Of a stretch of DNA of 41,142 nucleotides, positions 14,090 through 38,878 are shown one piece after another. This DNA comes from an uncultured Spartobacteria bacterium. GTDB taxonomy: Bacteria > Verrucomicrobiota > Verrucomicrobiia > Chthoniobacterales > UBA6821. Position 1 is the first letter of the stretch; the number at the start of each line of letters is the position of its first letter. The notes under the pieces were generated by a model that was given only the letters and a program-made list of their open reading frames with translations, did no database searches and had not been told where the DNA came from. The translations under genes and the position numbers were made by a program. Where the stretch lies: the NCBI GenBank assembly GCA_903858595.1, contig CAIOJL010000240.1, positions 1-41,142 on the forward strand, in the 5' to 3' direction.

Positions 14090-14413
14090 ATGAAAACCAT
14101 CCAAGTCTACGACCCGGCCATGTGCTGCTCCTCCGGGGCCTGCGGTCCTGACATCGACCCGATCCTTCCCCAGGTGGCGGCCTTCCTTCATCAGTTGAAG
14201 GAACATGGGGTGGCGGTAGATCGATTCAATCTCTCTCAACAGCCGCTGGCCTTTGTGCAGAACGCTGAGGTGAAGAACCTCCTTCAATCCGAGGGAACCG
14301 AAGCCCTACCCCTCTTCTTCATCGACGGAAAGCTCGCTCTCAAGGGTGCTTATCCCGATCACGACAAGCGCAAGGAGTGGCTGATCGCTCACAAACTGCA
14401 GGCCACCCAGTGA
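14090..14413 (+). CDS. arsD: Arsenic metallochaperone ArsD
   Basis: MKTIQVYDPAMCCSSGACGPDIDP; vicinal CC plus third Cys. Confidence 0.93.
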   Translation: MKTIQVYDPAMCCSSGACGPDIDPILPQVAAFLHQLKEHGVAVDRFNLSQQPLAFVQNAEVKNLLQSEGTEALPLFFIDGKLALKGAYPDHDKRKEWLIAHKLQATQ

Positions 14414-21352: not shown

Positions 21353-21607
21353 TCAAGCTTCCAGTGAAGAAGAGAGGGAGCGCTCCCGACTGATTTCACG
21401 GCACGTCTTCACCATGATCCAACTCATGAAACCGACTACGGAAAAAACCACGCCGATCATGAAGAGGGTACTGGAAGAGAAAGCCAACTTGGAAACAATC
21501 GTGAGAGGTTCAATCTGACCCCCTGTCCCTTGGAGGGCACAGTCGGGACAGGCCATGGCATTCACCAGTGACAGGATCAGAACCGGAAGGAAGGTAAGTA
21601 ACTTCAT
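21353..21607 (-). CDS. Small secreted/membrane protein with CPDC motif
   Basis: MKLLTFLPVLILSLVNAMACPDCALQ... plus one TM helix; packed between sco and DUF420 genes. Confidence 0.65.
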   Translation of the reverse strand: MKLLTFLPVLILSLVNAMACPDCALQGTGGQIEPLTIVSKLAFSSSTLFMIGVVFSVVGFMSWIMVKTCREISRERSLSSSLEA

Positions 21608-22263
21608 GGTGCCGTGGGCTTACTACAAGGTTCCCTCAGGAGGTTCCCGATGTCGATCAAAAGCTTTTGAACCAACTCCGGTTCATCAAGCTTGCGGGCA
21701 ATGCGGATCTGCCCCTGACGATCGATCACCAAGAATCGGGTCGAATGAACCGGCGCGGCCGGATCGGCCGTGGAGAGGGCCTGGAGCATTCCCTTGGTGG
21801 TGAACTCATGCACCTGATTAGTGGGACCGGTCAGGAAAATCCACCGATTCGGATCGACATTAAAGCGCCTGGCGTACTCCTTCAGGACCGCCGGCGTGTC
21901 ATGCTCCGGATCGATCGAGAGGGAAACCAGGCGCACGTCCTTAGCTTTTTTAAGTTCCTCGGAGATCTCGGCCAATCGCGAAGACATCATCGGGCAAGGA
22001 CCCGGGCATCGGGTGAAGAAGAAGTCGATTACCCAGACCTTGCCCAGCAGGTCCGCACGCGTAAAAGGATTCCCCTCCTGGGTAATGAAGTGGAAATCAG
22101 GAACTGTTCCTATCGCTGGCGTCTCATCATAACCTCGGTGCTCCGAGCTTCGGAACATCCGTACCGCTCCCGAAATCAGCACCATCACAACCAAAAAAGT
22201 CATGACCCAAGCCATGAGGGGGAGCCGCTTCGGGGGGGGCGGTTCCAAAGATGGTTCGTTCAC
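21604..22263 (-). CDS. SCO1/SenC family copper chaperone
   Basis: VWVIDFFFTRCPGPCPMMSSRL (CxxxC), VRLVSLSIDPEHDTPAVLKEYA. Confidence 0.9.
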   Translation of the reverse strand: MNEPSLEPPPPKRLPLMAWVMTFLVVMVLISGAVRMFRSSEHRGYDETPAIGTVPDFHFITQEGNPFTRADLLGKVWVIDFFFTRCPGPCPMMSSRLAEISEELKKAKDVRLVSLSIDPEHDTPAVLKEYARRFNVDPNRWIFLTGPTNQVHEFTTKGMLQALSTADPAAPVHSTRFLVIDRQGQIRIARKLDEPELVQKLLIDIGNLLREPCSKPTAP

Positions 22264-22297: not shown

Positions 22298-22954
22298 TCA
22301 GAGCAGGTAGAGGATCGTGTAAAGGAGTACCCAGACAACGTCGACGAAGTGCCAGTAGAGGCCGACATTCTCAAGCGCGACATGGCGTTTCGGAGTGAAG
22401 GTCCCCTTGGTGACCTGAAGGAAGAAGCACCAGAGGATCAGGAGGACGCCAATGCAGACATGGGCGCCGTGGAATCCCGTGAGCGTGAAGAAAGTGGAGC
22501 CGTAGACACCGCCTTTGTTGAACCAGAGGCCCTCATGGTAGAGCTCCGTCCACTCGATGCACTGGATGCCGACAAACGTTGCTCCCATCAGCGCGGAGAG
22601 GAGCATCCACCCAGCACCGGATTTCCCTTTCTTCACCGCCACTTCGGCAAAGTGATAGACAAAGGAACTGGAGACTAGGATCACCGTGTTGATGCCGGTC
22701 AGGAGCTTTGGCATCGGAGGAAGCTCGATGCCATCTCCGAAGTTCGGGGGCCAAGAACCAGCCGCCTGCCGAAGCACGAGATAGGTTGCGATTAGTCCGC
22801 CGAAGAGCATTGCCTCGGAGCAGAGGAAAATGCACATGCCCAGCTTGCAGGTCGCGGGTGAGGTGGGCGGAGCTGCATGATGGTCATGCTCGGAAACCTC
22901 TGCGACCATGGGCGCGTGAAAGAGGGCGGAGTCGTTATAGGCTGCGTTATTCAT
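22298..22954 (-). CDS. coxC: Cytochrome c oxidase subunit III
   Basis: GMCIFLCSEAMLFGGLIATYLVLR, TGFHGAHVCIGVLLIL, YWHFVDVVWVLLY. Confidence 0.92.
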   Translation of the reverse strand: MNNAAYNDSALFHAPMVAEVSEHDHHAAPPTSPATCKLGMCIFLCSEAMLFGGLIATYLVLRQAAGSWPPNFGDGIELPPMPKLLTGINTVILVSSSFVYHFAEVAVKKGKSGAGWMLLSALMGATFVGIQCIEWTELYHEGLWFNKGGVYGSTFFTLTGFHGAHVCIGVLLILWCFFLQVTKGTFTPKRHVALENVGLYWHFVDVVWVLLYTILYLL

Positions 22955-23101: not shown

Positions 23102-23998
23102 TTATTGGCGAGCGAAGGCGATCAGCACCCCAAGCAACAGCGGGAGATAGATGATTGAGGCGAAGAAAAGACGGCGAGCCGAAGCGTTGGTCCTGTTCCT
23201 GATAAAGGCCACCGAGAGATAAATCATTGCGGCACCAAGGGCCAGTGCTGCAAAGAAATAGTAGGGGGAGGCCATCCCGAGGATACCCGGCAGGAGAGAG
23301 ACGCCGAGAAGAGCCACGGAATAGATGAGGGCCTGCCACGCCGTGGACCATCCATCCGGGTCGCGGGTGCTGAGCATCTTGAATCCAGCCGCCGCATACT
23401 GGTCACGATAGAGCCAAGCGATGGCCAGGAAGTGAGGCATCTGCCAGAACCAGAGGATTAGGAAGAGGACCCATCCACCCACACCTAGATGATCTGTAGC
23501 GGCGGTCCATCCCAGCAACGGAGGAAGCGCCCCCGGAATGGCCCCAACAAGGGTATTCAGCTCCGTGAAACGCTTGAGCGGGGTGTAGAGGGCGGCGTAA
23601 ATGAGAATAGTTAATCCCGCCAGCAACGCGGTCAAGGGATTGGCGAAGAAGGCAAGGATCGCAACCCCACAACCACTGCAAAGCAAACCGAAGAGTAGGG
23701 CGTCGGAAGGGTGCATCCTGCGGGCAGGCAAGGGACGGTCCGAGGTCCTCGGCATCAGTGCATCGAGATCACGCTCCAGCCACTGGTTGAGGGCCGAGGC
23801 TCCGGCGGCACTCAGGGCCGTACCGAGTAGCGTGGCTACAAGCAGCGTATAATCCATCGGGCCCCTCCATCCGAGCAGAAATCCGACCAGAGTGGTCATC
23901 AGGACCAGGAAGGAGAGACGCGCCTTTGAAAGCTCGCTCAGATTGGAGAGTAGTCCCACCTTGAGCTCGGATTTCACGGTTCCCTCGGAAGCGCTCAT
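23102..23998 (-). CDS. ctaB: Protoheme IX farnesyltransferase
   Basis: NQWLERDLDALMPRTSDRPLPARRM, MPHFLAIAWLYRDQYAAAGFKML. Confidence 0.92.
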   Translation of the reverse strand: MSASEGTVKSELKVGLLSNLSELSKARLSFLVLMTTLVGFLLGWRGPMDYTLLVATLLGTALSAAGASALNQWLERDLDALMPRTSDRPLPARRMHPSDALLFGLLCSGCGVAILAFFANPLTALLAGLTILIYAALYTPLKRFTELNTLVGAIPGALPPLLGWTAATDHLGVGGWVLFLILWFWQMPHFLAIAWLYRDQYAAAGFKMLSTRDPDGWSTAWQALIYSVALLGVSLLPGILGMASPYYFFAALALGAAMIYLSVAFIRNRTNASARRLFFASIIYLPLLLGVLIAFARQ

Positions 23999-25068
23999 GA
24001 GAGTGCCTCCCGAGAGTGAGATGTACCGGGGGATTCCGAACCGGCGCAGAAGAGGCGGAAGGTGAAGAGAATACCGAAGGCTGTCAGCAGCGCACCGAGC
24101 GCCATGTGGGAGGTGGCGACATCTGCCGCCTTATTCGTCCAGATTGTCACAGCCCCAAGCAGGATCTGAAGCAGTATAGCGCCCACCCAGAGAAGACTCC
24201 AAACGCGGAGCCAATGTCCTAGAGGCGTCCGGGCCACGGCCAGCGCGGCGGTGGCGATCACGATAAGCAACAGTACAAAGGCTCCGGCACGGTGGGTTAA
24301 CTGCAAGTGGATTTGAGCGACGGAAACAGGAGCCATTTTGTCATTGGCCCTCTCTTCATTGATGCGCGTCAGGGCGCCCTCCGAGGTATCAGGAATCAGC
24401 GTGCCGTAGGCGGTTGGGAAATCACGGATCGCAAGCGGCGCGTGTTGGTGGCGGATGGTCGCGGCGATACCCAGCTGGAAATAGGTCAGCACAAGGCCGG
24501 CTAGCACGAGCCAACGAAGGGAGGCTGCCGCGCTGTCGGCAAACCAGACTCCCGAAAGGAATCCCCTCCCCGTCACGGCGGTGATCACCAGCAGCAGGCC
24601 GAAGAAGCTCTGGGCAAGCGCCGCATGGAAGATGCCGATCTGGTCCTTGTAGAGGGTCACGCGGAGACCACCCAGCACGCCCTGTGCTATCACGCCGATC
24701 ACGGCCGCCACGGCCAGCCATTTGACCCAGGTTCGTTGTTCTTTCCAAAGTGTTACACCGGCAAGCACGAGTGTGATCAGGCCGATTCCACTGGCCAGCA
24801 AACGATGCGAGTGCTCCCAGAAGATACCTCCCACCCACTTCGAGTAAGGAAAGCGGAACATGTTGTACCCGTAGGTGGTCGGCCAGTCCGGAACCGACAT
24901 GCCGGCCCCCTTCGATGTGACAAGGCCTCCCACAACAATCAAAAGGAATGTAGCCACCGAGGCGATCAGAGCAATTCGGTGAACCGCCCCGGATGATCCT
25001 GCGGATGAAGCAGAAGCGATGCCCGAAGGCCTTATTCTAGCCGTTTCCACAGTTCCCCCTGTTCCCAC
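23995..25068 (-). CDS. ctaA: Heme A synthase
   Basis: VGGLVTSKGAGMSVPDWPTTYG, WEHSHRLLASGIG, QLTHRAGAFVLLL, TSHMALGALL. Confidence 0.9.
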   Translation of the reverse strand: MGTGGTVETARIRPSGIASASSAGSSGAVHRIALIASVATFLLIVVGGLVTSKGAGMSVPDWPTTYGYNMFRFPYSKWVGGIFWEHSHRLLASGIGLITLVLAGVTLWKEQRTWVKWLAVAAVIGVIAQGVLGGLRVTLYKDQIGIFHAALAQSFFGLLLVITAVTGRGFLSGVWFADSAAASLRWLVLAGLVLTYFQLGIAATIRHQHAPLAIRDFPTAYGTLIPDTSEGALTRINEERANDKMAPVSVAQIHLQLTHRAGAFVLLLIVIATAALAVARTPLGHWLRVWSLLWVGAILLQILLGAVTIWTNKAADVATSHMALGALLTAFGILFTFRLFCAGSESPGTSHSREALS

Positions 25069-25077
25069 AGGCTGACC

Positions 25078-26877
25078 CTAGTGGGCTTCCAAAGTGATGT
25101 GGGCGGGGGCCTTCTCATTCTGAGGCAGGAAATCCCTTGCCAGACCGGGAACGCTATACTCGTAGGGACCGTGATAGACAGTCGGCGTCACTGCAAAGTT
25201 TCCGTGAGGGATCGGATGGGAAACCGTCCACTCCAGGGTGGTGGAGTTCCAGGGATTCGCAGGGGCCTTGGGACCATTCAACATGCTCCATACGATATTC
25301 ACGACAAAGGGAATGGTGGCGAGTCCGAGGCCCATCGCCCCGATCGTGCAGACAACATTCAGGGGTTGGAGTTGCTTGAGGCAGTCATAGACTGTCGGAT
25401 CGGCAATGCGGCGCATCATGCCTCCAAGGCCCAGATTATGCATCGGGAAGAAGGTCAGGTTGAAGAAGACGAAGGTCATCCAGAAATGGATCCACCCAAG
25501 CGTGTTATTGAACATTCTGCCCGACATCTTTGGAAACCAAAAATAGACTGCCCCGAAGATCGCGAACATGCTACCTCCGAAGAGGACGTAGTGGAAGTGG
25601 GCGACGATGAAGTAGGTGTGGTGAACGAAGAGATCCACAGGAGTAGAAGCCATGAAGATGCCGCTCAGCCCCCCGATCACGAACATTGAGACAAAGGAGA
25701 CAGCAAAGGCCATCGGCACCGTGTAGTGGATCGACCCGCGCCAGATCGTGCCCATCCAGTTGAAGGTCTTGATAGCACTAGGAACCGCGATGACCATCGT
25801 CGAGACGGAGAAAGCCGCACTCAACGTGAGGTTCATGCCGCTGACATACATATGGTGTCCCCAGACGATGAATCCGAGGAAGCCGATCGAGATCATTGCC
25901 CAGACCATGGCCTTGTAGCCGAAGACGGGCTTGCGGGAGAAAACCGAGAGAATTTCAGACGTGAGACCGAACGCAGGCAGGATAAGGATGTAAACCTCCG
26001 GGTGGCCGAAGAACCAAAAGAGATGTTGCCAGAGAAGAGGCTGTCCGTAGCCGGAGGGGCGGTAGAAAGTGGTGCCGAAATTCAAATCGAAGATGATCAG
26101 GGCGGCCGCCGCCGAAAGAACGGGGATCGCCAGAATAAGTAGGATCGCTGTCAGAAAGATCGCCCAGACGGGAAGAGGCATCCGAAACATTGTCATTCCG
26201 GGAGCCCTCATCGTGATCACGGTGGTGATGTAGTTGACCGCGCCAGTGATCGAGGAGAGACCGTTGATAAAGAGAGCAGCGCACCAGAGGCTCTGACCCA
26301 TGGGCGTCTGGTTGTAAGCAGCAACACTGCTGAGCGGAGCATAGGCCGTCCATCCGGTACCTGGAGCGCCTCCTGGCACCCAGAAGGAGCTCAACATGAT
26401 GATCCCGGAAAGAGCGAAGAGCCAGTAGCTCAACTCGTTCAGTGCCGGAAAGGCCATGTCGCCAGCCCCGATTTTGAGAGGAATAAGGAAATTTCCGAAT
26501 ACGCCGATCAGCAGCGGCATTGCCACGAAAAAGACCAAGATTGTCCCGTGCATGGTGACCAGCACATTGTAACCGCTGGGAATGATGGCGCCCTCGTCAT
26601 TCACAACACTGTGGGGAAGGAGGTGGCCAATCACGGGTATAGGATGGCCCGGAAAGGCCAACTGCCAGCGCATCGCCAAGGCCATTGCTCCACCAAAAAT
26701 CAGGAAAAACGTGGCGGACCAGAGGAACTGGAGCGCAATCATCTTGTGATCGGTGTTCCAGAGGTAGTGCATGATGCCGGGCTTCCCCTGTCCATGCCCA
26801 TGCCCATGGTCATTATGATGACTCCCGCTGTGAGTCTCCACGGTCGCAATGCTGTCGTGGGTGATTGATGCACTCAT
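25078..26877 (-). CDS. coxA: Cytochrome c oxidase subunit I (caa3/aa3 type)
   Basis: HLFWFFGHPEVYILILPAFG, VWGHHMYVSGM, HTYFIVAHFHYVLFGGSMFAI; all ligand histidines present. Confidence 0.95.
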   Translation of the reverse strand: MSASITHDSIATVETHSGSHHNDHGHGHGQGKPGIMHYLWNTDHKMIALQFLWSATFFLIFGGAMALAMRWQLAFPGHPIPVIGHLLPHSVVNDEGAIIPSGYNVLVTMHGTILVFFVAMPLLIGVFGNFLIPLKIGAGDMAFPALNELSYWLFALSGIIMLSSFWVPGGAPGTGWTAYAPLSSVAAYNQTPMGQSLWCAALFINGLSSITGAVNYITTVITMRAPGMTMFRMPLPVWAIFLTAILLILAIPVLSAAAALIIFDLNFGTTFYRPSGYGQPLLWQHLFWFFGHPEVYILILPAFGLTSEILSVFSRKPVFGYKAMVWAMISIGFLGFIVWGHHMYVSGMNLTLSAAFSVSTMVIAVPSAIKTFNWMGTIWRGSIHYTVPMAFAVSFVSMFVIGGLSGIFMASTPVDLFVHHTYFIVAHFHYVLFGGSMFAIFGAVYFWFPKMSGRMFNNTLGWIHFWMTFVFFNLTFFPMHNLGLGGMMRRIADPTVYDCLKQLQPLNVVCTIGAMGLGLATIPFVVNIVWSMLNGPKAPANPWNSTTLEWTVSHPIPHGNFAVTPTVYHGPYEYSVPGLARDFLPQNEKAPAHITLEAH

Positions 26878-26881
26878 AAAA

Positions 26882-27823
26882 TTATAGTTTATTCCCAGCC
26901 GCTGGAGCAGTCAAGGAGGCCGCCTTTGCAGGACTCGGTGGCGCAACAGGAACAGACGTAGTCGCGGGTATGATCCCCGCATTCTTCTGCTGCCGGGGGA
27001 TCAACCACTTCTGAAATTCCTCCTCAGAGACAATCTTGATCGGAGCCTTCATATTATAATGACCCGTTCCGCAAAGTTGGTTGCAGGCTAACTGGAAGTC
27101 ACCGGTCTGTGTTGCTTGGAACCAAACCCAGCCGATGGTCCGGCCCGGGACACAATCTTGATAAAGACGGAACTCAGGAACGTAGAAAGAGTGGATCACA
27201 TCGCGGGAGTGAAGAAGAACATGGACAGGACGGCCAACTGGAATCACGAGATCCGTGGTAATGACATCCTGGGCCGTCTTGGGGTTCTCGGGATCGGTGC
27301 CGAAAGGATTCAGCGGGGTTATGTTGCGTACATCCATCGGGGCGAGCTTGCCGCTAATTCCCGGATACCGCATCTGCCACCCAAACTGATAGCTGGAGAC
27401 ATCGATGGTCAGGGCGTTGTCGGGTGCCGGACGATGAATTTCCTCCCAGACACGGTTGCTATAGATGGCGAGGGCAAGGAAGATGATGGTTGGGGCCGTG
27501 GTCCAGATGATCTCCAGCGTATTGTTGCCATGGCTGTAATGGGCCGGAACTCCTGTTCGACGACGATAAACAATCAGACAGTAAATGTAGACCCCCTGGG
27601 TAACAACGAAGACCACGGCCGTCAGCCAGAAGATCATCTTGATGATCGAGTCAATCTGCACACCCGTGGTCGTCACGCAAGGGGGGAGTCCGTAGACATT
27701 TCCACTGCGCTGCTCGGCGAAGGCCCCGCCAGCCATGACTAAAGAGGCCAAGAAAATGCCGCTTGTCAGCAAGCGTGAAGCTATTCGTTTGGTGAAGAGC
27801 TGAGAAAGCATGGTGGTGGTCAT
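26882..27823 (-). CDS. coxB: Cytochrome c oxidase subunit II
   Basis: CuA motif HSFYVPEFRLYQDCVPGRT ... CNQLCGTGHYNM. Confidence 0.93.
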   Translation of the reverse strand: MTTTMLSQLFTKRIASRLLTSGIFLASLVMAGGAFAEQRSGNVYGLPPCVTTTGVQIDSIIKMIFWLTAVVFVVTQGVYIYCLIVYRRRTGVPAHYSHGNNTLEIIWTTAPTIIFLALAIYSNRVWEEIHRPAPDNALTIDVSSYQFGWQMRYPGISGKLAPMDVRNITPLNPFGTDPENPKTAQDVITTDLVIPVGRPVHVLLHSRDVIHSFYVPEFRLYQDCVPGRTIGWVWFQATQTGDFQLACNQLCGTGHYNMKAPIKIVSEEEFQKWLIPRQQKNAGIIPATTSVPVAPPSPAKAASLTAPAAGNKL

Positions 27824-28464
27824 TTCATGGCCGGAGTGGCTCCCGATGTTACATTGGGTTTTACTGGAGGAACGGCCAGCAGTTGCTCCTGGGTCCAGGA
27901 ATCGCTCTGGGCGGCGTCAGTCTTACGGATTTGAGTAACAAATTCCGGAGAAATAGCGGGCGTATTATTGCCCCAATCCGAACGAATGTAGGTGAGGATG
28001 TCTGCGATCTGCTCATCCGAGAGTTGCTTCCATGGCACCATGGCGTTGTTGTATTGCTGCCCCTTTACTTCGAAGGTCCCCTGCAGGCCGTTCAGGACAA
28101 GCATCACCAGATGATTTTCCGCGTGGTTCCCCTCGGTAAGCACCCACTCGCTGCCAGCAAGCGGAGGGAACTGGCCCGCCACCCCCATGCCGTTCGGCTG
28201 ATGGCAGACAACGCAGTTCTGCGTGTAGAGGCGCTTGCCAACGACCTTGGGATCCACGGGAGCCGCAGCAGTAGCACCACCGCCGACCCAGTTCACGGCA
28301 TTGCTCTCATAGACATCCTGACGAAATCCACCGCTGTTAAAGCCGAGGTAGAGGCCACCCCAAATCAGCGCCAGCATGAAGGCTCCGACAAGCCAAGGAG
28401 ACAGCGGCCTATTCGTCTCCTCAGTTACTTGCTTGGGATGTTGGTTGTGGTGATCGTTATTCAC
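27820..28464 (-). CDS. Membrane-anchored monoheme cytochrome c
   Basis: N-terminal TM, CVVCHQPNGMGVAGQFPPLAGSEWV, SDEQIADILTYIRSDWGN. Confidence 0.88.
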   Translation of the reverse strand: MNNDHHNQHPKQVTEETNRPLSPWLVGAFMLALIWGGLYLGFNSGGFRQDVYESNAVNWVGGGATAAAPVDPKVVGKRLYTQNCVVCHQPNGMGVAGQFPPLAGSEWVLTEGNHAENHLVMLVLNGLQGTFEVKGQQYNNAMVPWKQLSDEQIADILTYIRSDWGNNTPAISPEFVTQIRKTDAAQSDSWTQEQLLAVPPVKPNVTSGATPAMK

Positions 28465-28483: not shown

Positions 28484-29122
28484 TTATTTTGCAGCCCCGA
28501 TCTTCTTCACGGGAGCCTCCGGCAACGGGTAATCATGGCGCAGGGAAAGGAGATAGGCGACGAGGTTTTTGGCGTCGGCTGTGGGAACTACTTCATAGCC
28601 CTCCTGCGGAGCATCGTCCCCCGTCAGGGCAAGAGCCTCGTTGGATCGCTGGCCCTGGATCTTGCGGATAAGGTAAAGATCACTGAAGCAGGGCATGAGC
28701 GACCCCTCGCAGACGGCGGAGGGATGGTAGAGGTGGATTAAGTGCCACTTGGCATCGGGACGACGCACACCGACGTTCGTGAGATCCTGCCCAAGGCGGC
28801 GTGATCCCAGGAAGGCCGTTGAGTCACGCAGATAGTCACGGGCTACAGAGGGACGAGCACCCCAACCCCGATCAACATCCGACGAGGTAATGCTGGTCTG
28901 GCGCACTTGCTGGCTATGGCAGGAAATGCAACCCTCGGTCGCGTAGATGCGCTGTCCTGCAATGGCTTGACCTCCATAGGTAGGGGGAAGGGAGCCCCCG
29001 TTATCGGCATCGGCTACTGGCGTGAGACGACCAAGCTGGAGAGCCGGATAAGCGACGAGGCCGAGCCACGAAGTCAGGAAGACCAAGAAGATACCGCTCA
29101 GCAATGTAGGGAGACGATGCAT
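28484..29122 (-). CDS. CcoO-like (cbb3 subunit II-like) monoheme cytochrome c
   Basis: MHRLPTLLSGIFLVFLTSW, EGCISCHSQQVRQT, WHLIHLYHPSAVCEGSLMPCFSDLY. Confidence 0.85.
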   Translation of the reverse strand: MHRLPTLLSGIFLVFLTSWLGLVAYPALQLGRLTPVADADNGGSLPPTYGGQAIAGQRIYATEGCISCHSQQVRQTSITSSDVDRGWGARPSVARDYLRDSTAFLGSRRLGQDLTNVGVRRPDAKWHLIHLYHPSAVCEGSLMPCFSDLYLIRKIQGQRSNEALALTGDDAPQEGYEVVPTADAKNLVAYLLSLRHDYPLPEAPVKKIGAAK

Positions 29123-29123
29123 G

Positions 29124-30581
29124 TTATTTCCCGTTGTGCTTGTTAAGGAGATAATCACCCGCCAGAGCAAACGTGATGTTCGCGCCAAGAGTCAGCATGG
29201 CTATAAGGAGCAGCAACTGCGCAACACATTCCATCAAGTGAAAGGGGTAGGAGTAGGAGGTGATGTTGAGGAAGGAGACCGTGGGGTCGGCAAGAGCAAG
29301 CCCAGTAAAGAGACCTCCGAGAAGCATCAAGACGACCAGCATACCGAGCCCCACCAAGGTCAGGATGTAGTGGCGTCCCGAGAGCACCGGACACCAGCAA
29401 TCGCGCCCGAGGAGTTGGGGCAGCGACTCGTAAAGCACGCCGAAAAGCGGCAGGGAGATGGCTCCTAGGATCCAGAGCTGGGTCTTAGCCTCAGTGAAGG
29501 CGGTGAACCGGACAGCTCCGCTGACATCCGGCAAGGAGGCGAGCGCTCCGATCACGCCAACGATGACAAGCGCGTAGAGCCCCATCAGCAGAAAGCGACC
29601 AGGAAGACTTGCAGAAACAATGACTTCATTGCGAGGCATCCCGAGGAGATTGATCGAGATCATGATGATCGGAATCAGGAAAAGGACTCCGGCGACCACG
29701 CCGGCAGAAGTCATCCAGGCTGGAACGGGTCCTCCGATGAGGCGGTCCATGCCATTCCATCCTCCAAGGAGAAGAAGCATCCAGAATCCGAGAGTAGAAA
29801 GATGGCGACGGTTCATGTGGCATCCCAGAAGTCGGGGAAGCAGCGCATAGGCCGATGCAAGCGCCACTGGTAAGAGCCAGAGGGCCAGCAGGCTGCCGCA
29901 ATACCATGACTGGATTGGGCCTTGAGCCGAGGCCTGAACAGGCTTCCAGGTGAGGAGGAGATTGGCCGTTCCGTAAACCCATGGGAACCAGCAGAAGGCA
30001 GCGACAAGATACCACTGGGCCACCTCGGCGCGAGGGTTGCTCCGGCGATCAAAAAGCAGAACCGCCCATATTCCAATCAGCAGGAATGAGAGCAGGAGCA
30101 TCGCGGAAGCCCAGTTGGGATACTCGAGCCATTCGACGCCCGTGCTGTAGCCTGCGAAGATCGCGAGCGTTCCTAGTAGAACAGCCAGGTTCCAAAGCAC
30201 CGTTGCGCTGATGATCAACGTCCTGAGCAGCATGCCACCCATGCCTTGGCCATCTCCGCCACCGAGAGGACGACCACAGAGGCGGGCCATTAGCCAGACG
30301 CCGGCGCCAATCGCAGCTTGAGAAGCCCATCCGTAGAGCATGAGATCGCGGGCCATCGGAGCAAGGCGACCGTAGTTCAGGAAGCTGATACCTCCAAGGA
30401 ATCCGGGAGCGATCAACTTGATGGAAACAACAAGAGAGAGTAAACAGGCGATCACAAGCCAGTGGATAGCGTTTCCGAAGAGGATGATCACCGGCAAGCG
30501 GACCGAGGCGTCGATGGCCTTGTTGTCGACGGGTTCATGACCCGGCGCGGGATGATGATGGGGAAGGTTGTGATGGCTCAT
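29124..30581 (-). CDS. CcoN-like (cbb3 subunit I-like) membrane protein lacking heme/CuB ligand histidines
   Basis: YGRLAPMARDLMLYGWASQAAIG, WYCGSLLALWLLPVALASAYALLPRLLG, FWMLLLLGGWNGMDRLIGGPVPAW, FTAFTEAKTQLWILGAISLPLFGVLY aligned by eye to CcoN; neighbouring CcoO-like gene. Confidence 0.8.
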   Translation of the reverse strand: MSHHNLPHHHPAPGHEPVDNKAIDASVRLPVIILFGNAIHWLVIACLLSLVVSIKLIAPGFLGGISFLNYGRLAPMARDLMLYGWASQAAIGAGVWLMARLCGRPLGGGDGQGMGGMLLRTLIISATVLWNLAVLLGTLAIFAGYSTGVEWLEYPNWASAMLLLSFLLIGIWAVLLFDRRSNPRAEVAQWYLVAAFCWFPWVYGTANLLLTWKPVQASAQGPIQSWYCGSLLALWLLPVALASAYALLPRLLGCHMNRRHLSTLGFWMLLLLGGWNGMDRLIGGPVPAWMTSAGVVAGVLFLIPIIMISINLLGMPRNEVIVSASLPGRFLLMGLYALVIVGVIGALASLPDVSGAVRFTAFTEAKTQLWILGAISLPLFGVLYESLPQLLGRDCWCPVLSGRHYILTLVGLGMLVVLMLLGGLFTGLALADPTVSFLNITSYSYPFHLMECVAQLLLLIAMLTLGANITFALAGDYLLNKHNGK

Positions 30582-30594
30582 GGCAATGGCAAGG

Positions 30595-30933
30595 CTATGG
30601 TTGGCCCTCCTTGGGAGCTTTGTTCGCAGAGTTTTGCAGGGTCGGAAGGACCAGTTCCAGTGCCCTGCCGATCGGAATATGGACGATTCCCTTGGCTTGA
30701 TCATTCCAGCCATAGGTGGTGAGGGCGTTCGAATCGGCGGCCTGAAGCTCCACGAGATTCTTCGTACGGACGGCAGCCCGGTCTGCATCTTCGGTTTCCG
30801 TGGCGGTGTTAGAGCGGTTGAGCCAGAGAGCTCCGAGCACAGCCGCGAGCAGTAGAATCAGAACTCCGATCCAGAGCAGAATGCCGGTCGATAACCGCGG
30901 GTTTTCAGAATTGGACGTATGATCGTGGCTCAT
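30595..30933 (-). CDS. Small single-TM hypothetical of the respiratory cluster
   Basis: ILLWIGVLILLLAAVLGALWLNR and YGWNDQAKGIVHIPIGRALELVLP; operon packing. Confidence 0.7.
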   Translation of the reverse strand: MSHDHTSNSENPRLSTGILLWIGVLILLLAAVLGALWLNRSNTATETEDADRAAVRTKNLVELQAADSNALTTYGWNDQAKGIVHIPIGRALELVLPTLQNSANKAPKEGQP

Positions 30934-32165
30934 CAGTCGATGTAGTTGACGGCCTCAGCTAGACGGGGATCCCGCGAGGGCCAGAGTGGTGAATCGCCGA
31001 GGCGCTTCAGGAAGAAGGCGCTCAGCGTGCAACCGATCGCAAGCAGCGAGACGACGTCCAGGACGGCAGGGTGGAAACCTTCCGGATGCAACACGGGCAG
31101 GATCATTGTATAAACGTCCAGCAGGTGCATGCAAAGAATCCAGCCGGCGACCAGACCTAGGAATCCGGAGCTGGCCTTGGGACCACGGAAGAGCAGTAGG
31201 ACAAAGGGAACCAGGAAGTGGCCGACCACTAGAATGATCCCCAGAACATTCCAGGACGTGGAGGAGCGCAGGACGTAGTAAACGCTCTCTTCGGGGATGT
31301 TCGCATACCAAATGAGCATGTACTGGACGAAGGCAATCCAGGACCAGAAAAGCGTAAAACCAAGCAGCAACTTACCAAAGGCAAAGTTATGCTGAGCAGT
31401 CAGCACTTTCTTAAGATAGCCGGCGGAGCGAAGTGCATTCGAGAGCAGTATGATGACGCAGAGTGCCGATAGGACTGATCCGGCGAAGATGTAGAGTCCC
31501 CAGATCGTTGAGTTCCACTTCCAGTTCAGACCCATGATCCAATCGATCGACCAGAAAGTGAGTGAGATGGCACCAACCGGCACCAGGAAGAAGGCGACCC
31601 TGCGATTGCGGATGGTGTGGATGGCATCGCCATCCTTGTCCTGAGCCAAGGAATTCCGACGAAGCAACAGTGCTCCAGCTCCGAAGAGCAGGAAGTAAAA
31701 GGCCGTGCGAACCCAGAAGAAATTCACATTCAGGAAGGCGGATTTTTCTGCCAGCTCATGGTTGGTGGAGGGTGACAAAGCCATCCAAGTCCAGAGATCC
31801 GAAGCCACAAAAAGAAGCGGCACCAGCAGCAGCGTGAGAAGCGGCAGCAGACAGGAGATATTCTCCAGTTGTCGTCGGATCCCGACGCTCCAGGCCGCAT
31901 CCACTGCATGATGAACGACGATCCAGAAGAGCGATCCGATCAGGATCGTGAAGAAGAAACACCCTGCAAACATCCACGAGAAAGCGAACTGGTGGGGATT
32001 AGCTAGCCCTAGGATCAGCGAGAGCAAAAGCCCGATCAGGGCAGTCACACAGAGCCCGACAAAACGTCCGCCGACATGCTTGTAGTCGAAGGTCTCGGCG
32101 GGCGGAAGGATTCCGGATGCCGATCGTGCTTGCTGTGCAGGGAATGATTTATGTTCAGCGATCAT
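30933..32165 (-). CDS. actF: Alternative complex III subunit ActF
   Basis: Multi-TM protein following actE; FSIDWIMGLNWKWNSTIWGLYIFAG, FWSWIAFVQYMLIWYANIPEE. Confidence 0.88.
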   Translation of the reverse strand: MIAEHKSFPAQQARSASGILPPAETFDYKHVGGRFVGLCVTALIGLLLSLILGLANPHQFAFSWMFAGCFFFTILIGSLFWIVVHHAVDAAWSVGIRRQLENISCLLPLLTLLLVPLLFVASDLWTWMALSPSTNHELAEKSAFLNVNFFWVRTAFYFLLFGAGALLLRRNSLAQDKDGDAIHTIRNRRVAFFLVPVGAISLTFWSIDWIMGLNWKWNSTIWGLYIFAGSVLSALCVIILLSNALRSAGYLKKVLTAQHNFAFGKLLLGFTLFWSWIAFVQYMLIWYANIPEESVYYVLRSSTSWNVLGIILVVGHFLVPFVLLLFRGPKASSGFLGLVAGWILCMHLLDVYTMILPVLHPEGFHPAVLDVVSLLAIGCTLSAFFLKRLGDSPLWPSRDPRLAEAVNYID

Positions 32166-32902
32166 GGCTTGGCGGCGCCGGTTGTGGCGGAAGCCGCGTT
32201 GGTGCCGGTGAGTGCGGCACGATTAGCCGTGGGCACGTCGTTGATCGTCGCATTCTGCGAACGCTGCAGCGCGCGCATGTAGGCAACGATGGCCCAGCGG
32301 TCTGGCACCTGGATCACCGAACCGTAGCCCATCATCGTATTCTTGCCGTTCACGATCGTGTTGTAGATCTCGCCATCACTCATATCGCGAATGCGCTGTT
32401 GCTGTAGGTTGGCGACGCCGACCAAACCATATTTTGTAGCGATACCATTGCCGGCTCCCGTGGCACCATGACAGACGGCACACTGAATCTGGTAACGCTC
32501 GCGTCCCCGTTCCAGAGTAGCCATGGTCGCGGAGAAGGGAATGCCATTGCCCCAGTTCGTTCCGATCTTGCCCGTGTCGGCATAGTCCTGCTTGCCGGAG
32601 AAAACAACAACGCTGTAGGGACTTCCCATGGTCGCGACTCCCTCAGAGGCCTGAGCACTGGACTCTGGAGCCGAGTACCCAACAGGAACAGTCCCGGCTA
32701 CATTCGCACGAGCGCCGCGTCCATCGTCATAGAAGTCGCTCGGGGCCTGCGCCTTGACTTTGTCCTGACGGACCATATCGGGGAAGATCTCGATCGGAGG
32801 ACGCTTGGTCTTGTGCGGCAGAAAGGAGTAGTCGCGCAATCCGGCAATGGAGACCACCAGGATGGTGATGAGGACAAGAAGGAAAAGGAAATAGCGTACC
32901 AT
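32162..32902 (-). CDS. actE: Alternative complex III monoheme cytochrome c ActE
   Basis: RYQIQCAVCHGATGAGNGIATKYG, MMGYGSVIQVPDRWAIVAYMRALQRSQNA. Confidence 0.9.
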   Translation of the reverse strand: MVRYFLFLLVLITILVVSIAGLRDYSFLPHKTKRPPIEIFPDMVRQDKVKAQAPSDFYDDGRGARANVAGTVPVGYSAPESSAQASEGVATMGSPYSVVVFSGKQDYADTGKIGTNWGNGIPFSATMATLERGRERYQIQCAVCHGATGAGNGIATKYGLVGVANLQQQRIRDMSDGEIYNTIVNGKNTMMGYGSVIQVPDRWAIVAYMRALQRSQNATINDVPTANRAALTGTNAASATTGAAKP

Positions 32903-32907
32903 GGCAA

Positions 32908-33510
32908 TTATTTCTCTTCTGAGGCCTCCTGATGGATGGCGGTGATGTCACCGGCACCGAGTTCATGGAGTAGCTCGGTCAGGGCCGAGGTTGAGAATTT
33001 CCGGTCGCGGGCTTCTATGGCAATGAAGAAACCGCGCGAAGCATCCTTGGCAAAGAGATCCCAGGCAAACATCGGATTATTCCATCGGGGCATCCCCCCC
33101 AGCAGGATCATCCCTGTAACGGCCGTGATCGCGCCGATCATGAGGGTCAGGGCCACCACGATAGGAACGTACTGGGGCAGCGCCAGAAGATTGAGAGGCT
33201 TCCCATCAACCACCAGCGGATAGATGATGCAGCTGGGGATCAGTTGCATTGAGAGAGCAATCAGGACTGCGGAAACACCCCCACCCAGGACGAGTAAGCT
33301 CAGGATTGATTTGGGGAGCTTCATCGCCTCGGCAAGTCCGTGAATAGGGTAGGGAGTCAAGCACTCGTAGAGTGAAACTCCCTCGTCGCGGAGGCGATCG
33401 ACGGCATGGACAAGGGCCTCAGGCGTCTCGAATCGGGCTCCAAGAGCATAGAGCGGCTCCTCTTTGGAACCAGCAATCGGCAGGTGATGACCTTGAAAAT
33501 GATTGCTCAT
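32908..33510 (-). CDS. actD: Alternative complex III subunit ActD (DUF3341)
   Basis: YALGARFETPEALVHAVDRLRDEGVSLYECLTPYPIHGLAEAM. Confidence 0.9.
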   Translation of the reverse strand: MSNHFQGHHLPIAGSKEEPLYALGARFETPEALVHAVDRLRDEGVSLYECLTPYPIHGLAEAMKLPKSILSLLVLGGGVSAVLIALSMQLIPSCIIYPLVVDGKPLNLLALPQYVPIVVALTLMIGAITAVTGMILLGGMPRWNNPMFAWDLFAKDASRGFFIAIEARDRKFSTSALTELLHELGAGDITAIHQEASEEK

Positions 33511-33511
33511 C

Positions 33512-34957
33512 TCAGTGTGTTTCCTCCGTGGAATTATTGGAATGACCCGCGCCAGCATGAGGCTGGGTGCCTGGCAGGACAGCTTTCAACTCGTTCATGC
33601 TCATGATTGGCACAAACCGGATGAAGAGCAGGAAGAGGGTGAAGAAAATGCCAAGTGTTCCGGTAGCCGTCAGGATATCGACGATTGTCGGGTGGAAGTT
33701 CCCCCAGGAAGAAGGAAGGAAATCGTGCGTGAGCGTCGAGGTAACAATCATGAAACGCTCGAACCACATGCCGACATTGCAGAGGATCGCGAGAATGAAG
33801 ACCAGCGGAAGGCAGCGGCGGACCGCCTTGAACCAGAAGAGTTGCGGCACCGTCAGGTTGATCGAGAGGCAGGTGATGGCGTACCAGCTGCAGCTGCCGG
33901 TGAAGCGCTCCCAGAAAGCCCCGCGCTCGAAAGGATTCGCGCTATACCAGGCATTGAAGAGCTCGAACACATAGACATAAGCCACGCAGGAACCCATCAT
34001 CAGGAGGAGTTTGCAGACCTTGTCGAGTTGGGACGGGGTAATCAGATCCCTGAGCTGAGGATAGATCAAGCGCAACGGAAGCAGCAGCGTCAGGATCGCC
34101 GCACTGCCGCTGTAAACCGCGCCGACCATGAAGTAGAAGGGGAAGATCGTGGCATGCCATCCAGGAATCACCGAGGTAGCGCAATCGCTGGCCACAATCG
34201 TAGTGACGGTCACCACCAACACAGAGGTAAGCCCGGCTAGCAGGACATACATCATCTCGTAATGGCGCCATTGACGCGCCGTACCAAGCCATCCTAGGGA
34301 GACGATACCGTAGGCGAACTTGCGAACTTTTGTCGTGGCGCGGTCTCGAAGGACGGCCAGATCGGGAATCATGCCGGCGAACCAGAAGAGCGAGGAGACA
34401 GTCAGGTAACTCGTCACTGCGAAGACATCCCAGAGAAGAGGGCTCAAGAAATTCGGCCACATGCCATAGCTGTTCGGCACAGGGAAGAGGAACCAGACAA
34501 ACCAGACGCGGCCGATATGGATCGCGGGATAGACGCCGGCACAGACAATCGCAAAGACCGTCATTGCTTCGGCCGCTCGGGAGATCGAAAGACTCCACTT
34601 CTGACGTGTCAGAAAGAGCAGGGCCGAGATGAGGGACCCGGCATGCGCCATAGAAACCCAGAAGATGAAATTGGTGATATCCCAAGCCCAGAAGCAAGGG
34701 CTGTTTGATCCCCAGACACCCACACCGGTGCAGATCATGTAAAGGATGCAGGCTCCGCCAATCGCAGCGAAGGTGCCCGTGAAGGCGATCGCTGCATACC
34801 ACCAGAGCGGGGTTTTCCCTTCAACAATTGAACAGACCGCGTCGGTCACCCAGAGGGGGCCGCGGTTGTTGAGCACCTGCGGCGGACGCTCCAAGACATG
34901 AAGATCAGGCGTCTCAGTCTCGGCGGCAGTGATGATCGAAGGAGTTGACATGGACAT
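33512..34957 (-). CDS. actC: Alternative complex III subunit ActC (NrfD/PsrC-like)
   Basis: NNRGPLWVTDAVCSIVEGKTPLWWY, FWVSMAHAGSLISALLFLTRQKW. Confidence 0.92.
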   Translation of the reverse strand: MSMSTPSIITAAETETPDLHVLERPPQVLNNRGPLWVTDAVCSIVEGKTPLWWYAAIAFTGTFAAIGGACILYMICTGVGVWGSNSPCFWAWDITNFIFWVSMAHAGSLISALLFLTRQKWSLSISRAAEAMTVFAIVCAGVYPAIHIGRVWFVWFLFPVPNSYGMWPNFLSPLLWDVFAVTSYLTVSSLFWFAGMIPDLAVLRDRATTKVRKFAYGIVSLGWLGTARQWRHYEMMYVLLAGLTSVLVVTVTTIVASDCATSVIPGWHATIFPFYFMVGAVYSGSAAILTLLLPLRLIYPQLRDLITPSQLDKVCKLLLMMGSCVAYVYVFELFNAWYSANPFERGAFWERFTGSCSWYAITCLSINLTVPQLFWFKAVRRCLPLVFILAILCNVGMWFERFMIVTSTLTHDFLPSSWGNFHPTIVDILTATGTLGIFFTLFLLFIRFVPIMSMNELKAVLPGTQPHAGAGHSNNSTEETH

Positions 34958-34965
34958 GCTCGCTC

Positions 34966-37900
34966 TTAGGAATGGTCTGCCTGTTCAGCGCCACGATTCG
35001 CGGCGCCGACGAGATCGGCTCCCGGCATCGCAGGGTTGGGATTGCGGATCCTTGCCATGTAGGTCACGCGGGGACGCGTGTTCAGATAGGCAAGTGAGGA
35101 ATAGGTGCGTGGGTCGGCCTTGGCCTGTGAGACGGCGCTCTTGGGATCGTTGATGTTGCCAAAGACGATCGACTCGGATGGGCAGGCCTGCTGGCAGGCG
35201 CTCTTGAAGACTGGGAGAGGGGTCTTGGTGACATCACTGGCACCGGCCTTGACTGAGCGGGCGATCTTCGCCTCCTCGATGCGCTGGATGCAGAAGGTGC
35301 ACTTCTCCATGACACCGCGCATACGGACAGTCACGTTAGGGTTCTTCGACATCTTGAGGCTGTCGGCCATTCCCTTCGGTGCAAGCGGTCCGTAGTAGAG
35401 CTCATCCAGCGGACGCTCGTTGTAGTCGAACCAGTTGAAGCGGCGGACCTTCCAGGGGCAGTTGTTCGCGCAGTAGCGGGTACCGATGCAGCGATTGTAG
35501 GCCATCAAGTTCAGACCCTCCTCGCTGTGGACGGTTGCGTTCGCTGGGCAGACCGCCTCGCAGGGTGCGCTCTCGCACTGCTGACACATGATGGCCATCG
35601 GGATCATCTCGAGGCTTTCCTCCTTATGATCCGCGCTCGCGAACCAGCGGTCGATGCGGATCCAGGCCATATCACGGCCGCGGCGGACCTGATCCTTGCC
35701 GACGACCGGAATGTTGTTCTCAGCCTGGCAGGCAACGATGCAGGCATTGCAACCGATGCAGGAGTTGAGATCGACCGAGAGCCCCCACTGGAGATCGGAG
35801 GTAAGGGGGGGATTCGGGTAGATGGAGATCGGCTCCGGCAGCTCGCCATCCATTTCTCGGGCGAATTCGGGCTGCTTCTGGAGGGTAGCAAGAGTTCCCG
35901 TACGGGCGAGGTTGCGCCCTTCCATGTTCTGGTGCTCCTGGGTGCGGGCAAAGACGTAGGAATCCTTGGGCAGAGCCTGCACCTTGACGCCCAATCGGAA
36001 GCAAAGGCTTGAGGAATGACGCAGTGGGTAAGCGTCAAATCCAACGTTCTCCATCACATGGGAGACGCCCTTGCGGCCGTAGCCGAGGGCGATGCTCAGC
36101 GACTTGTCGACATGGCCGGGAGCAACGATCGCCGCGGCCTCGATCGAGCGGACGCCTGCAGTTATCTTCAGCCAATCACCATCTTTGATGCCGAGCATGC
36201 GGGCGTCGGCCGAGCTGACAAGAGCTGCATTATCCCAGACTAGCTTAGTGACATAGTCAGGGGTTTCCTGAAGCCAGGAATTATTCGCGTAGCGCCCATC
36301 ATCGACGCTGGAACTGCGTAGGAAGACCACTTCGAAATCTTTGGAATCCAACTTCGGAGCCGACTGAACCGCAGCAAGCGCGGCGGAGGCACTAAAGGAA
36401 GGGTTGGAGACCGGCCATGCGGTTCTGGCCGCAAACCCGTTTCTCAGGAACTCATTCCAAGATGCATCGGAGCCATCCTTGGTCACTGATGAAAAGGTGG
36501 TTCGGACTACGGAAGGCCCGTCGACTTTCTCTCCGGCCAAGGCGGCAAGGATCTCGAGGGACGAAATGCCATTCCAGAGCGGCAGGATCATCGGTTGGAC
36601 GGAGCAGATTGTTCCGTCGATCGATCGGGCATCGCCCCAGCGCTCCAGATAGTGGGCGGCAGGCACCTGCCAATGGGTCACCTTGCTGGTCTCATCAACA
36701 AACTGGGAGAGATGCAAGGTCTCGGCAACTCTGGACAGCAGGTTCGGAAAATTCAATTCAGCAGGGGCGGTGAGCACTGGGTTGCCCTCTAGGATGAGCA
36801 GGGTCTTGACCGAACCTGAACCCATGGCCTTTGCGAGATCGGCAAGCGTTGCGGCAGGCTTCACTCCGGTCTGGACCACATTGATAGTCGAACCAAGATT
36901 GCCGAGCGTGTTGTTGATGCCTAGGGCCATCGCCTGCACCGCGACGGACTGACCGGCTCCCAGTATCACAACTCCCTTACCCTTGGCTGAGATGAGGTCA
37001 TCAGCCACGCCGTTTACCCATGCAGGGTCAAAAGAGACACCCGACGCGGGATATGCCGCCGCCAGCGAGGAGAGGGATGTGTTGCCCGACTTCGTGGCGA
37101 TGACCTTGGCTAACGCAGCAGTGAAGTCACCGATTTCACTGGCTCGCACACGGAGGCGATGGTCGGCCATTCCGCCTGTGAGCGAGAAGTGATTCTCGAC
37201 CACATAAAGACGATTCATGGTTCTCCCATTGGAACCATTAGGATTGCGCCGCTTTGCAAAGCCCTTCGCGAATCCAAGTCCGCTCTCGGAGGGATTCAGG
37301 AAATCACTGCCTAGTGAGAGGATCACGTCGGCCTTCTTGAAATCATAAACAGGCCGAGCGCCCGTACCTAGCAGAGAGTCGAAGGCGGCTTCATCCGACT
37401 GGATCGCCTCATCCTGCACCCATAGAAGCTTGGGGAACTGGGAGGTGAGTTCCGTCCGGAGGCGCTCGACGGTCGGAGAGTTCTCCTTACCGACCACGAT
37501 CGCAAGCCCGTCACCGCCATTGGTTCCCGCAGCAGCGCGGATCTTGGAGATTAAAGAGTTCAGGTCGGAGCGGGAGGCCTTGGCGGAGTCACGGGTGATC
37601 TCCTTGGATCTGTAAGGGTCGTAGAGGCCCAAGATAGAGGCCTGGGCAAAGACGTCGGTCGAGCCGTTGCTGACGGGATGAAGCGGGTTGCCCTCGATCT
37701 TGGTGGGGCGACCATCCGAGGTCGTGACAGTAAGCGGTACGGCTCCCGCCGGGGTAGGCATGGAGCTGGCGTAGTAGAGGAACTTGCCGGGGATCGTCCA
37801 CTCGGCGCTCTTCGCGAAGGGAACGAGATGAGCCTCGGGACGGCGGCAACCAGTGAGCCCGACGCCGGTCAGCGCGGTAGCTGCTCCCATCAGACGGACA

Positions 37901-38067
37901 AAGTCGCGGCGGGAGAGATTGTTATCCTCACCATCGGATCCCGCGGCACCGGGAGTGAACTCGCGGGCGAGATCTTCGGCAAAGGCAGGCGAGTTCTCGC
38001 GCTCTCCCTGACTTCTCCAGAGGGCTGGCTTCAGATCACGCGTGGGATGTTGGAAAATCTTTTTCAT
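34966..38067 (-). CDS. actB: Alternative complex III subunit ActB (molybdopterin-like plus Fe-S domains)
   Basis: Tat-like SRRDFVRLMGAATALTG; CIGCNACIVACQAENNIP, CQQCESAPCEAVCP, CTFCIQRIEEAK clusters; start at MKKIFQHP assumed. Confidence 0.92.
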   Translation of the reverse strand: MKKIFQHPTRDLKPALWRSQGERENSPAFAEDLAREFTPGAAGSDGEDNNLSRRDFVRLMGAATALTGVGLTGCRRPEAHLVPFAKSAEWTIPGKFLYYASSMPTPAGAVPLTVTTSDGRPTKIEGNPLHPVSNGSTDVFAQASILGLYDPYRSKEITRDSAKASRSDLNSLISKIRAAAGTNGGDGLAIVVGKENSPTVERLRTELTSQFPKLLWVQDEAIQSDEAAFDSLLGTGARPVYDFKKADVILSLGSDFLNPSESGLGFAKGFAKRRNPNGSNGRTMNRLYVVENHFSLTGGMADHRLRVRASEIGDFTAALAKVIATKSGNTSLSSLAAAYPASGVSFDPAWVNGVADDLISAKGKGVVILGAGQSVAVQAMALGINNTLGNLGSTINVVQTGVKPAATLADLAKAMGSGSVKTLLILEGNPVLTAPAELNFPNLLSRVAETLHLSQFVDETSKVTHWQVPAAHYLERWGDARSIDGTICSVQPMILPLWNGISSLEILAALAGEKVDGPSVVRTTFSSVTKDGSDASWNEFLRNGFAARTAWPVSNPSFSASAALAAVQSAPKLDSKDFEVVFLRSSSVDDGRYANNSWLQETPDYVTKLVWDNAALVSSADARMLGIKDGDWLKITAGVRSIEAAAIVAPGHVDKSLSIALGYGRKGVSHVMENVGFDAYPLRHSSSLCFRLGVKVQALPKDSYVFARTQEHQNMEGRNLARTGTLATLQKQPEFAREMDGELPEPISIYPNPPLTSDLQWGLSVDLNSCIGCNACIVACQAENNIPVVGKDQVRRGRDMAWIRIDRWFASADHKEESLEMIPMAIMCQQCESAPCEAVCPANATVHSEEGLNLMAYNRCIGTRYCANNCPWKVRRFNWFDYNERPLDELYYGPLAPKGMADSLKMSKNPNVTVRMRGVMEKCTFCIQRIEEAKIARSVKAGASDVTKTPLPVFKSACQQACPSESIVFGNINDPKSAVSQAKADPRTYSSLAYLNTRPRVTYMARIRNPNPAMPGADLVGAANRGAEQADHS

Positions 38068-38723
38068 CGGTGGCAGCCTCCGCAGTTGACGGGTGGATTG
38101 ACCTTCCACTCCTCTTTGAACTTTGTTCCCAGCTCACGCTGCGCCTCGGGCGAGGCGGGATGCCAGTTCATGTTAAAGATCTCTGAGGGCGGGCGAAGGA
38201 AATTCTCAGGGGCGCGATGGCAGTCCAGGCACCACTTCATGCTGAGTGACTCGGCCTCGTAGACAACGCTCATCTCGTTTACTGCACCATGACAGCTGTA
38301 GCAGCTGACCCCACGGTTCACGTGGACCGCATGGTTGAAGTAAGCGTAATCGGGCAGGCGGTGGATCTGCACCCACGGGATTGGCTGGCCTGTCTCCCAG
38401 CTGTCGCGCACAGCGGCCAGACGGGGACTGTTCGGCAGGATCTTGCCCTGGCCGTGGCAGTTGATGCAGGTCTGGGTGGCAGGAAGGTTCGAGTGACCGG
38501 CTACCTCTACGAAGCTATGGCAATAGCGACAGTCCATCCCGAGCTGCTTCACGTGCAGGGCGTGGGAGAAGGGCACTGGTTGGTCGGGCTGATAGCCGAC
38601 GCGGGTGTACTTCGGCGTGAAATAGTACCAGATCCCGAGAGTGATGGGTCCGCCGATCACCAAGCCGCAGACAAGCAGCTGGAGCGGAAGCCAATTGGCC
38701 CATCTGGGAAAGAAATTCGACAT
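38064..38723 (-). CDS. actA: Alternative complex III pentaheme cytochrome c ActA
   Basis: Five CxxCH motifs: CRYCH, CINCH, CYSCH, CLDCH, CGGCH; start at MSNFFPRW. Confidence 0.92.
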   Translation of the reverse strand: MSNFFPRWANWLPLQLLVCGLVIGGPITLGIWYYFTPKYTRVGYQPDQPVPFSHALHVKQLGMDCRYCHSFVEVAGHSNLPATQTCINCHGQGKILPNSPRLAAVRDSWETGQPIPWVQIHRLPDYAYFNHAVHVNRGVSCYSCHGAVNEMSVVYEAESLSMKWCLDCHRAPENFLRPPSEIFNMNWHPASPEAQRELGTKFKEEWKVNPPVNCGGCHR

Positions 38724-38878
38724 TCGGGTGTTAGAGAAACGCCCGGATGGAGGAATTCTCAGGCCTGAACAGAGTAGAAAGTCAGCGGCCGAAGGCAAGA
38801 AATTTGCCGCAAAAAATCAAGAACCGCCGAATGCTCTCGCGCAGCCGTAACGGATGCGCAGCAACGGCAGGGCAAGCA

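Follow-up and report, generated by a model that had tools for sequence, protein, structure and literature searches.

A few described systems come close to the locus analysed here. In Acetobacter, a COX1-like protein lacks all metal-binding residues, and a structural role has been suggested for it (PMC10715153). In the ACIII-aa3 supercomplex of Flavobacterium johnsoniae, contact is made via oxidase subunit III, and a CcoN/CcoO-like subunit is not mentioned (PMC8361435). ACIII genes have also been described as co-located with a cbb3 oxidase, whose high affinity was considered in line with the observed oxygen affinity (PMC6688271), and the same ACIII neighbour has been called a cbb3 oxidase in other studies (PMC8498564, PMC11102522). 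No earlier description of an ACIII-linked, ligand-less CcoN family was found in the open-access literature, which is what the search covered.

We analysed a stretch of 41,142 nucleotides (the window) from an uncultured Spartobacteria bacterium, in which genes occur in the order ActA-B-C-D-E-F, X112, CcoN, CcoO, cytochrome c, CoxB, CoxA, CtaA, CtaB, a 128-aa ORF, CoxC, SCO1 and DUF420. The features assigned were as follows.

38064..38798, minus strand: ActA pentaheme cytochrome c (five CxxCH)
34966..38109, minus strand: ActB, molybdopterin-like plus FeS (profile match)
33512..34957, minus strand: ActC, NrfD-like (profile match)
32908..33558, minus strand: ActD (PF11821)
32162..32902, minus strand: ActE-like monoheme cytochrome c (CAVCH)
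30933..32165, minus strand: ActF-like ACIII subunit, assigned by position and class-wide synteny, without a Pfam match
30595..30933, minus strand: X112, a small conserved protein which most loci encode between ActF and CcoN
29124..30581, minus strand: ligand-less CcoN-like heme-copper oxidase subunit I (485 aa), from profile searches and alignments; ligand state AGDRGKQ
28484..29122, minus strand: CcoO/FixO-like membrane-anchored monoheme cytochrome c (FixO, 3.3e-19; CISCH and S-x-M-P motif retained)
27820..28464, minus strand: membrane-anchored monoheme cytochrome c, third gene of the module (CVVCH)
26882..27823, minus strand: CoxB, with a CuA site (CNQLCGTGHYNM) and without heme c
25078..26877, minus strand: CoxA, A-type oxidase subunit I, ligands present
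23995..25068, minus strand: CtaA/COX15 heme A synthase (profile match)
23102..23998, minus strand: CtaB heme O synthase (profile match)
22298..22954, minus strand: CoxC, oxidase subunit III (profile match)
21604..22263, minus strand: SCO1/SenC copper chaperone (profile match)

X112 had no family match in Pfam, and its motif TYGWNDQAKGIVHIPIGRALEL is, we presume, akin to one from other respiratory operons. The CcoO ATG lies one base past the CcoN stop. The CxxCH-bearing CcoO partner typical of cbb3 oxidases is present in the window, as a sequence-only reading of this DNA had noted; the diheme CcoP is not, the third gene encoding a monoheme cytochrome c. That reading also held that coxA of the same cluster retains its ligands, and the motifs MHGT, WFFGHPEVY, HHM and HFHY were all read from the translation. 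Its label of caa3 for the neighbouring oxidase has to be given up: the window CoxB carries a CuA site and lacks CxxCH, and the oxidase is therefore aa3-like. Elsewhere in the window are two adjoining ammonium transporter genes (PF00909; 7986-9521 and 10036-11544, both minus strand) and a plus-strand gene (14377-16206) whose 609-aa product matches ArsA-type ATPases in each half. It adjoins genes for a MIP-family channel and a pyridine nucleotide-disulphide reductase, in a possible arsenic-related cluster.

The CcoN-like ORF runs from an ATG at 30579-30581 to a TAA at 29124-29126 and is open throughout, bearing out the intact frame of 485 codons originally described. Residues 32-455 matched COX1 (PF00115) in Pfam (6.7e-29), placing the protein in the COX1 fold by profile, and phmmer gave a near end-to-end match (approximately residues 38-468) to solved cbb3 subunit I chains (9g6b, 6xkw, 9g83, 3mk7, 8smr). 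The top seven Foldseek matches were also cbb3 subunit I, with a low-confidence AlphaFold model as query (pLDDT 45, 10-row alignment). These matches identify the window protein as a heme-copper oxidase subunit I of the C-type (cbb3/CcoN-like), and its core is read as that of a former oxygen reductase. Heme-copper oxidases hold two hemes and CuB by six His ligands, which the window CcoN lacks: in whole-family MAFFT alignments H60 is replaced by A77, H207 by G229, H257 by D279, H258 by R280, H347 by K366 and H349 by Q368, and the helix-VII cross-link Tyr by G273. Identical ligand-column residues were obtained from alignment with CcoN and with differing family sets. The replacement of all six metal-ligand His proposed from the sequence alone is thus upheld by profile alignment to the oxidase family, and every one of the motif readings behind it was correct. 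Only H40, H404 and H448 are invariant His in the window clade, all outside the ligand columns, and H404 is conserved in liganded family members too. It is close to certain, judging from these columns, that the CcoN core is redox-dead, with heme b, heme b3 and CuB no longer held at their known sites. Searches of the host genome (2.35 Mb, 96% complete) yielded just two heme-copper oxidase subunit I genes, the ligand-less CcoN and the window CoxA.

We assessed how widely the family is distributed and whether its gene context is shared. In a protein search, Spartobacteria MAGs yielded close orthologs (61-91% identity). By profile, the family is present in most of the Verrucomicrobiia sampled: of 384 class genomes, 300 matched at E<=1e-60, a figure that takes in some canonical ccoN, and ActD matches, some of them weak, occurred in 319 of the 384. 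The CcoN module is encoded together with ACIII, and the order ActABCDEF-X112-CcoN-CcoO-cytc was near-invariant across the Verrucomicrobiia loci fetched with flanks; the synteny test proposed across Verrucomicrobiota thus gave the same slot in about 90 loci. The module is not strictly obligatory, since at least one methanotroph genome with ACIII (G008) had no CcoN member detected. Plasmids of Proteobacteria (Azoarcus, Paraburkholderia, Cupriavidus, Paracoccus) carry liganded relatives as well, in the order CcoN-CcoO-cytochrome c. One genome, G632, holds two family members on contigs C47 and C78, the latter (L202) fully liganded. Two ActD genes were seen in each of several further genomes, where a pair of ACIII operons may coexist. 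Further afield, a divergent ligand-less CcoN-CcoO-cytc module (L157, G078:C1; state ESARGVD) had no ACIII genes detected around it in a 20-kb stretch, and none were detected in an 11-kb stretch around a remote COX1-like protein (L061, G361:C2; H-EHSHH), which has part of the ligand set and an adjoining CcoO-like match.

Ligand loss was widespread among relatives and took many forms. Fully liganded proteins (HHHHYHH) were found at 28 of 97 loci, with ligands lost at the other 69; in a further draw of 52 loci the counts were 25 and 27, respectively. Lost states varied (AGDRGKQ in the window, QQRHGQQ, AHSRSRW, FEADAVQ, HSQKAFI, SESHSFV and others), and intermediates were present, including HHQHGFI and HRHHYHH, in which a single ligand is lost (L184). 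Six relatives (L072, L075, L199, L218, L230 and L231) had the state HNQR[SA]YH, in which just the low-spin heme His pair is kept, and are possible single-heme b proteins. Both kinds occur in a single genus-level group (g5), where G473 and G590 were fully liganded and G502, G609 and G125 were not. In liganded members 114 columns are invariant, and their median retention in ligand-less representatives was 66%. When these columns were ranked from the least retained upwards, the seven ligand sites took five of the first 11 places together with ranks 28 and 30.

The number of state changes required differed between trees: three in the best CcoN tree (57 rows, ligand columns removed), four in a denser CcoN tree (one being the single-ligand loss of L184), five for CcoO with cytochrome c, and nine each for ActB+ActC, ActF, and ActB+ActC+ActF. 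A single origin, with all ligand-less rows in one clade, was rejected (AU p=0.0006); neither the joining of clades 1 and 3 nor that of L078 and clade 3 was rejected (AU p=0.19 each). The cleanest case is L078, which lies amid liganded sisters in CcoN and ACIII trees alike. We conclude that ligand loss happened at least twice. The gap between the CcoN and ACIII trees could stem from many in-place losses that long-branch attraction masks in CcoN, or from module replacement or exchange between operons.

Across an inventory of 80 genomes, CoxA was present in every ligand-less genome and absent from two, G128 and G146. Both of these are liganded, and the searches of G146 showed no CoxA- or CcoN-type gene besides the liganded module. 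The pattern hints at, but does not prove, a working terminal oxidase in the liganded form and a reliance of the dead form on some other oxidase, although nearly all liganded genomes have CoxA too, so its presence discriminates weakly. In Methylacidiphilum, as in the window clade, the aa3 genes directly follow the module. A strict tie of ligand loss to adjacent coxABC was rejected: in many ligand-less loci (QQRH and AHSR groups) coxABC is not adjacent and CoxA is encoded at another place in the genome, and the liganded L073 does have coxABC beside it.

Ligand-less CcoN was also carried by methanotroph genomes with pmoA, in state ADAHAQT (G266) or SESHSFV (G042, G054 and G072), with CoxA-CoxC-CoxB following the module in these loci. 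The state SESHSFV recurs in their genus mate M. kamchatkense Kam1 (G152), in whose genome the search found no further ccoN. The 'cbb3 oxidase' beside ACIII in Kam1, published as functional, is therefore a member of the ligand-less family, and its sequence gives no support to an oxygen-reducing role. Since the Methylacidiphilum 'cbb3 oxidase' lacks the known heme b3 and CuB ligands, name-based annotation overstates the oxygen-reductase content of the class, and the ligand-less reading corrects published respiratory-chain reconstructions of Methylacidiphilum.

We consider it somewhat probable that the ligand-less CcoN is a redox-dead membrane scaffold holding a CcoO/cytochrome c heme-c relay between ACIII and a separate aa3 oxidase. 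The former CcoN core would persist in the ACIII operon to anchor and position CcoO and the third-gene cytochrome c; electrons from ACIII (the ActA/ActE hemes) would pass to the two c-hemes of these proteins and from there to a separate A-type oxidase, which in the window would be CoxBAC, encoded by the next genes. These parts would presumably form a physical complex.

Retention of the relay and of the protein itself bears on whether CcoN is instead a slowly decaying relic, kept through operon context without a function of its own. We regard this as unlikely, even though some observations favour it: the rate of CcoN relative to ActC rose from 1.9 to 4.1 upon ligand loss (CcoO and cytochrome c became somewhat faster, and ActB and ActF were about unchanged), the module is undetected in some ACIII genomes, and the CcoO S-x-M-P Met, present at all 28 liganded loci, was retained in 45 of 68 assessable ligand-less loci and missing in 23, where the relay may have changed or disappeared. 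In the HSQK clade (L090, L095, L106, L115, L117, L133 and others) the CcoO motif is S-x-C-P, likely with Cys in place of the heme c axial Met. Against decay, none of the listed family matches had internal stops, and CcoN was near full length almost everywhere among them. Moreover, dN/dS was far below 1 in more than one clade. The window clade, whose synonymous sites are close to saturated, gave 0.08-0.17, and ligand-less pairs from elsewhere gave 0.09-0.29; several of the latter are unsaturated, such as L148/L151 (0.096) and SolV-like versus Kam1 (about 0.15 at dS 0.25). Liganded pairs with usable dS had lower values (about 0.05-0.08). Methylacidiphilum has kept the ligand-less CcoN on very long branches and in small genomes, and CxxCH was kept in CcoO at 97 of 97 loci and in cytochrome c at all 95 where it was found. 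Ligand-less CcoN is thus not the product of random decay, given synteny in about 90 loci, purifying selection and retained heme-c partners; the sequence-only reading had suggested as much, and a strain-specific degenerating copy is not borne out by the dN/dS values.

Other functions for the dead subunit were also weighed. An assembly or chaperone role, in which it stabilises heme-synthesis or oxidase-assembly proteins (CtaA/CtaB/SCO) and carries no electrons, fits the presence of ctaA, ctaB and SCO1 in the window cluster, and such a role has been suggested for the Acetobacter protein, which clusters with ctaB (PMC10715153); in most loci, however, ctaA and ctaB are not neighbours, whereas CcoO and, nearly always, cytochrome c are, which leaves this role with a small probability. 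It is rather improbable that the fold serves non-redox transport as a proton or ion path aiding ACIII energy conversion: many residues (W41, G71, W130, N131, W201, W226, Y384 and H404 among them) are conserved in at least 80% of ligand-less members, but they may be purely structural. Least probable by our estimate is a hidden cofactor, that is, a heme or metal bound by other residues at new positions. Heme b may persist in the HNQRSYH relatives (L072, L075 and L218), where the low-spin pair is kept, but the three invariant His of the window clade lie off the ligand columns, and one of them is shared with liganded members.

The scaffold for a heme-c relay fits best overall, and this part of the original proposal, a scaffold linked to ACIII and a separate oxidase, remains the favoured reading, its docking or bridging being putative, with an aa3-like oxidase in place of the caa3 once envisaged. 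The idea needs widening, because the change is class-wide, graded and has occurred more than once, and some relatives keep one heme site. Whether Verrucomicrobiia as a class have recurrently and by degrees converted an oxidase core into a redox-dead subunit of an ACIII/c-heme/aa3 supercomplex, with some members midway and liganded relatives still oxidases, we judge to be evenly poised. An oxidase core retained more than once without metals makes the other roles of subunit I testable, and the liganded and ligand-less versions inside genus-level group g5 are natural experimental pairs.

Compared with the cbb3 oxidase CcoN/CcoO, the window protein shares the COX1 fold, a one-heme-c CcoO partner and near full-length alignment to solved CcoN, and liganded family members keep the six His and the helix-VII Tyr; it differs in lacking any metal ligand, in scoring 63.8 bits against TIGR00780 ccoN, below the equivalog cut-off of 583.15, and in having a monoheme cytochrome c at the place of the diheme CcoP, inside an ACIII operon. 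The published 'cbb3 oxidase' beside ACIII in Methylacidiphilum and Opitutaceae (PMC6688271, PMC8498564, PMC11102522) occupies the same operon position. The F. johnsoniae supercomplex likewise combines ACIII with an A-type oxidase, and there electron transfer takes place inside the supercomplex. The Acetobacter protein is also a heme-copper oxidase subunit I homolog without metal-binding residues, but it is COX1-like, lies in a ctaB cluster and belongs to Acetobacteraceae, whereas the window family is C-type and lies in ACIII operons. A ligand-less COX1-like protein was already known from Acetobacter, and what is new, within the open-access literature searched, is a C-type, ACIII-linked family in which the loss is class-wide and graded and the heme-c partners are kept.
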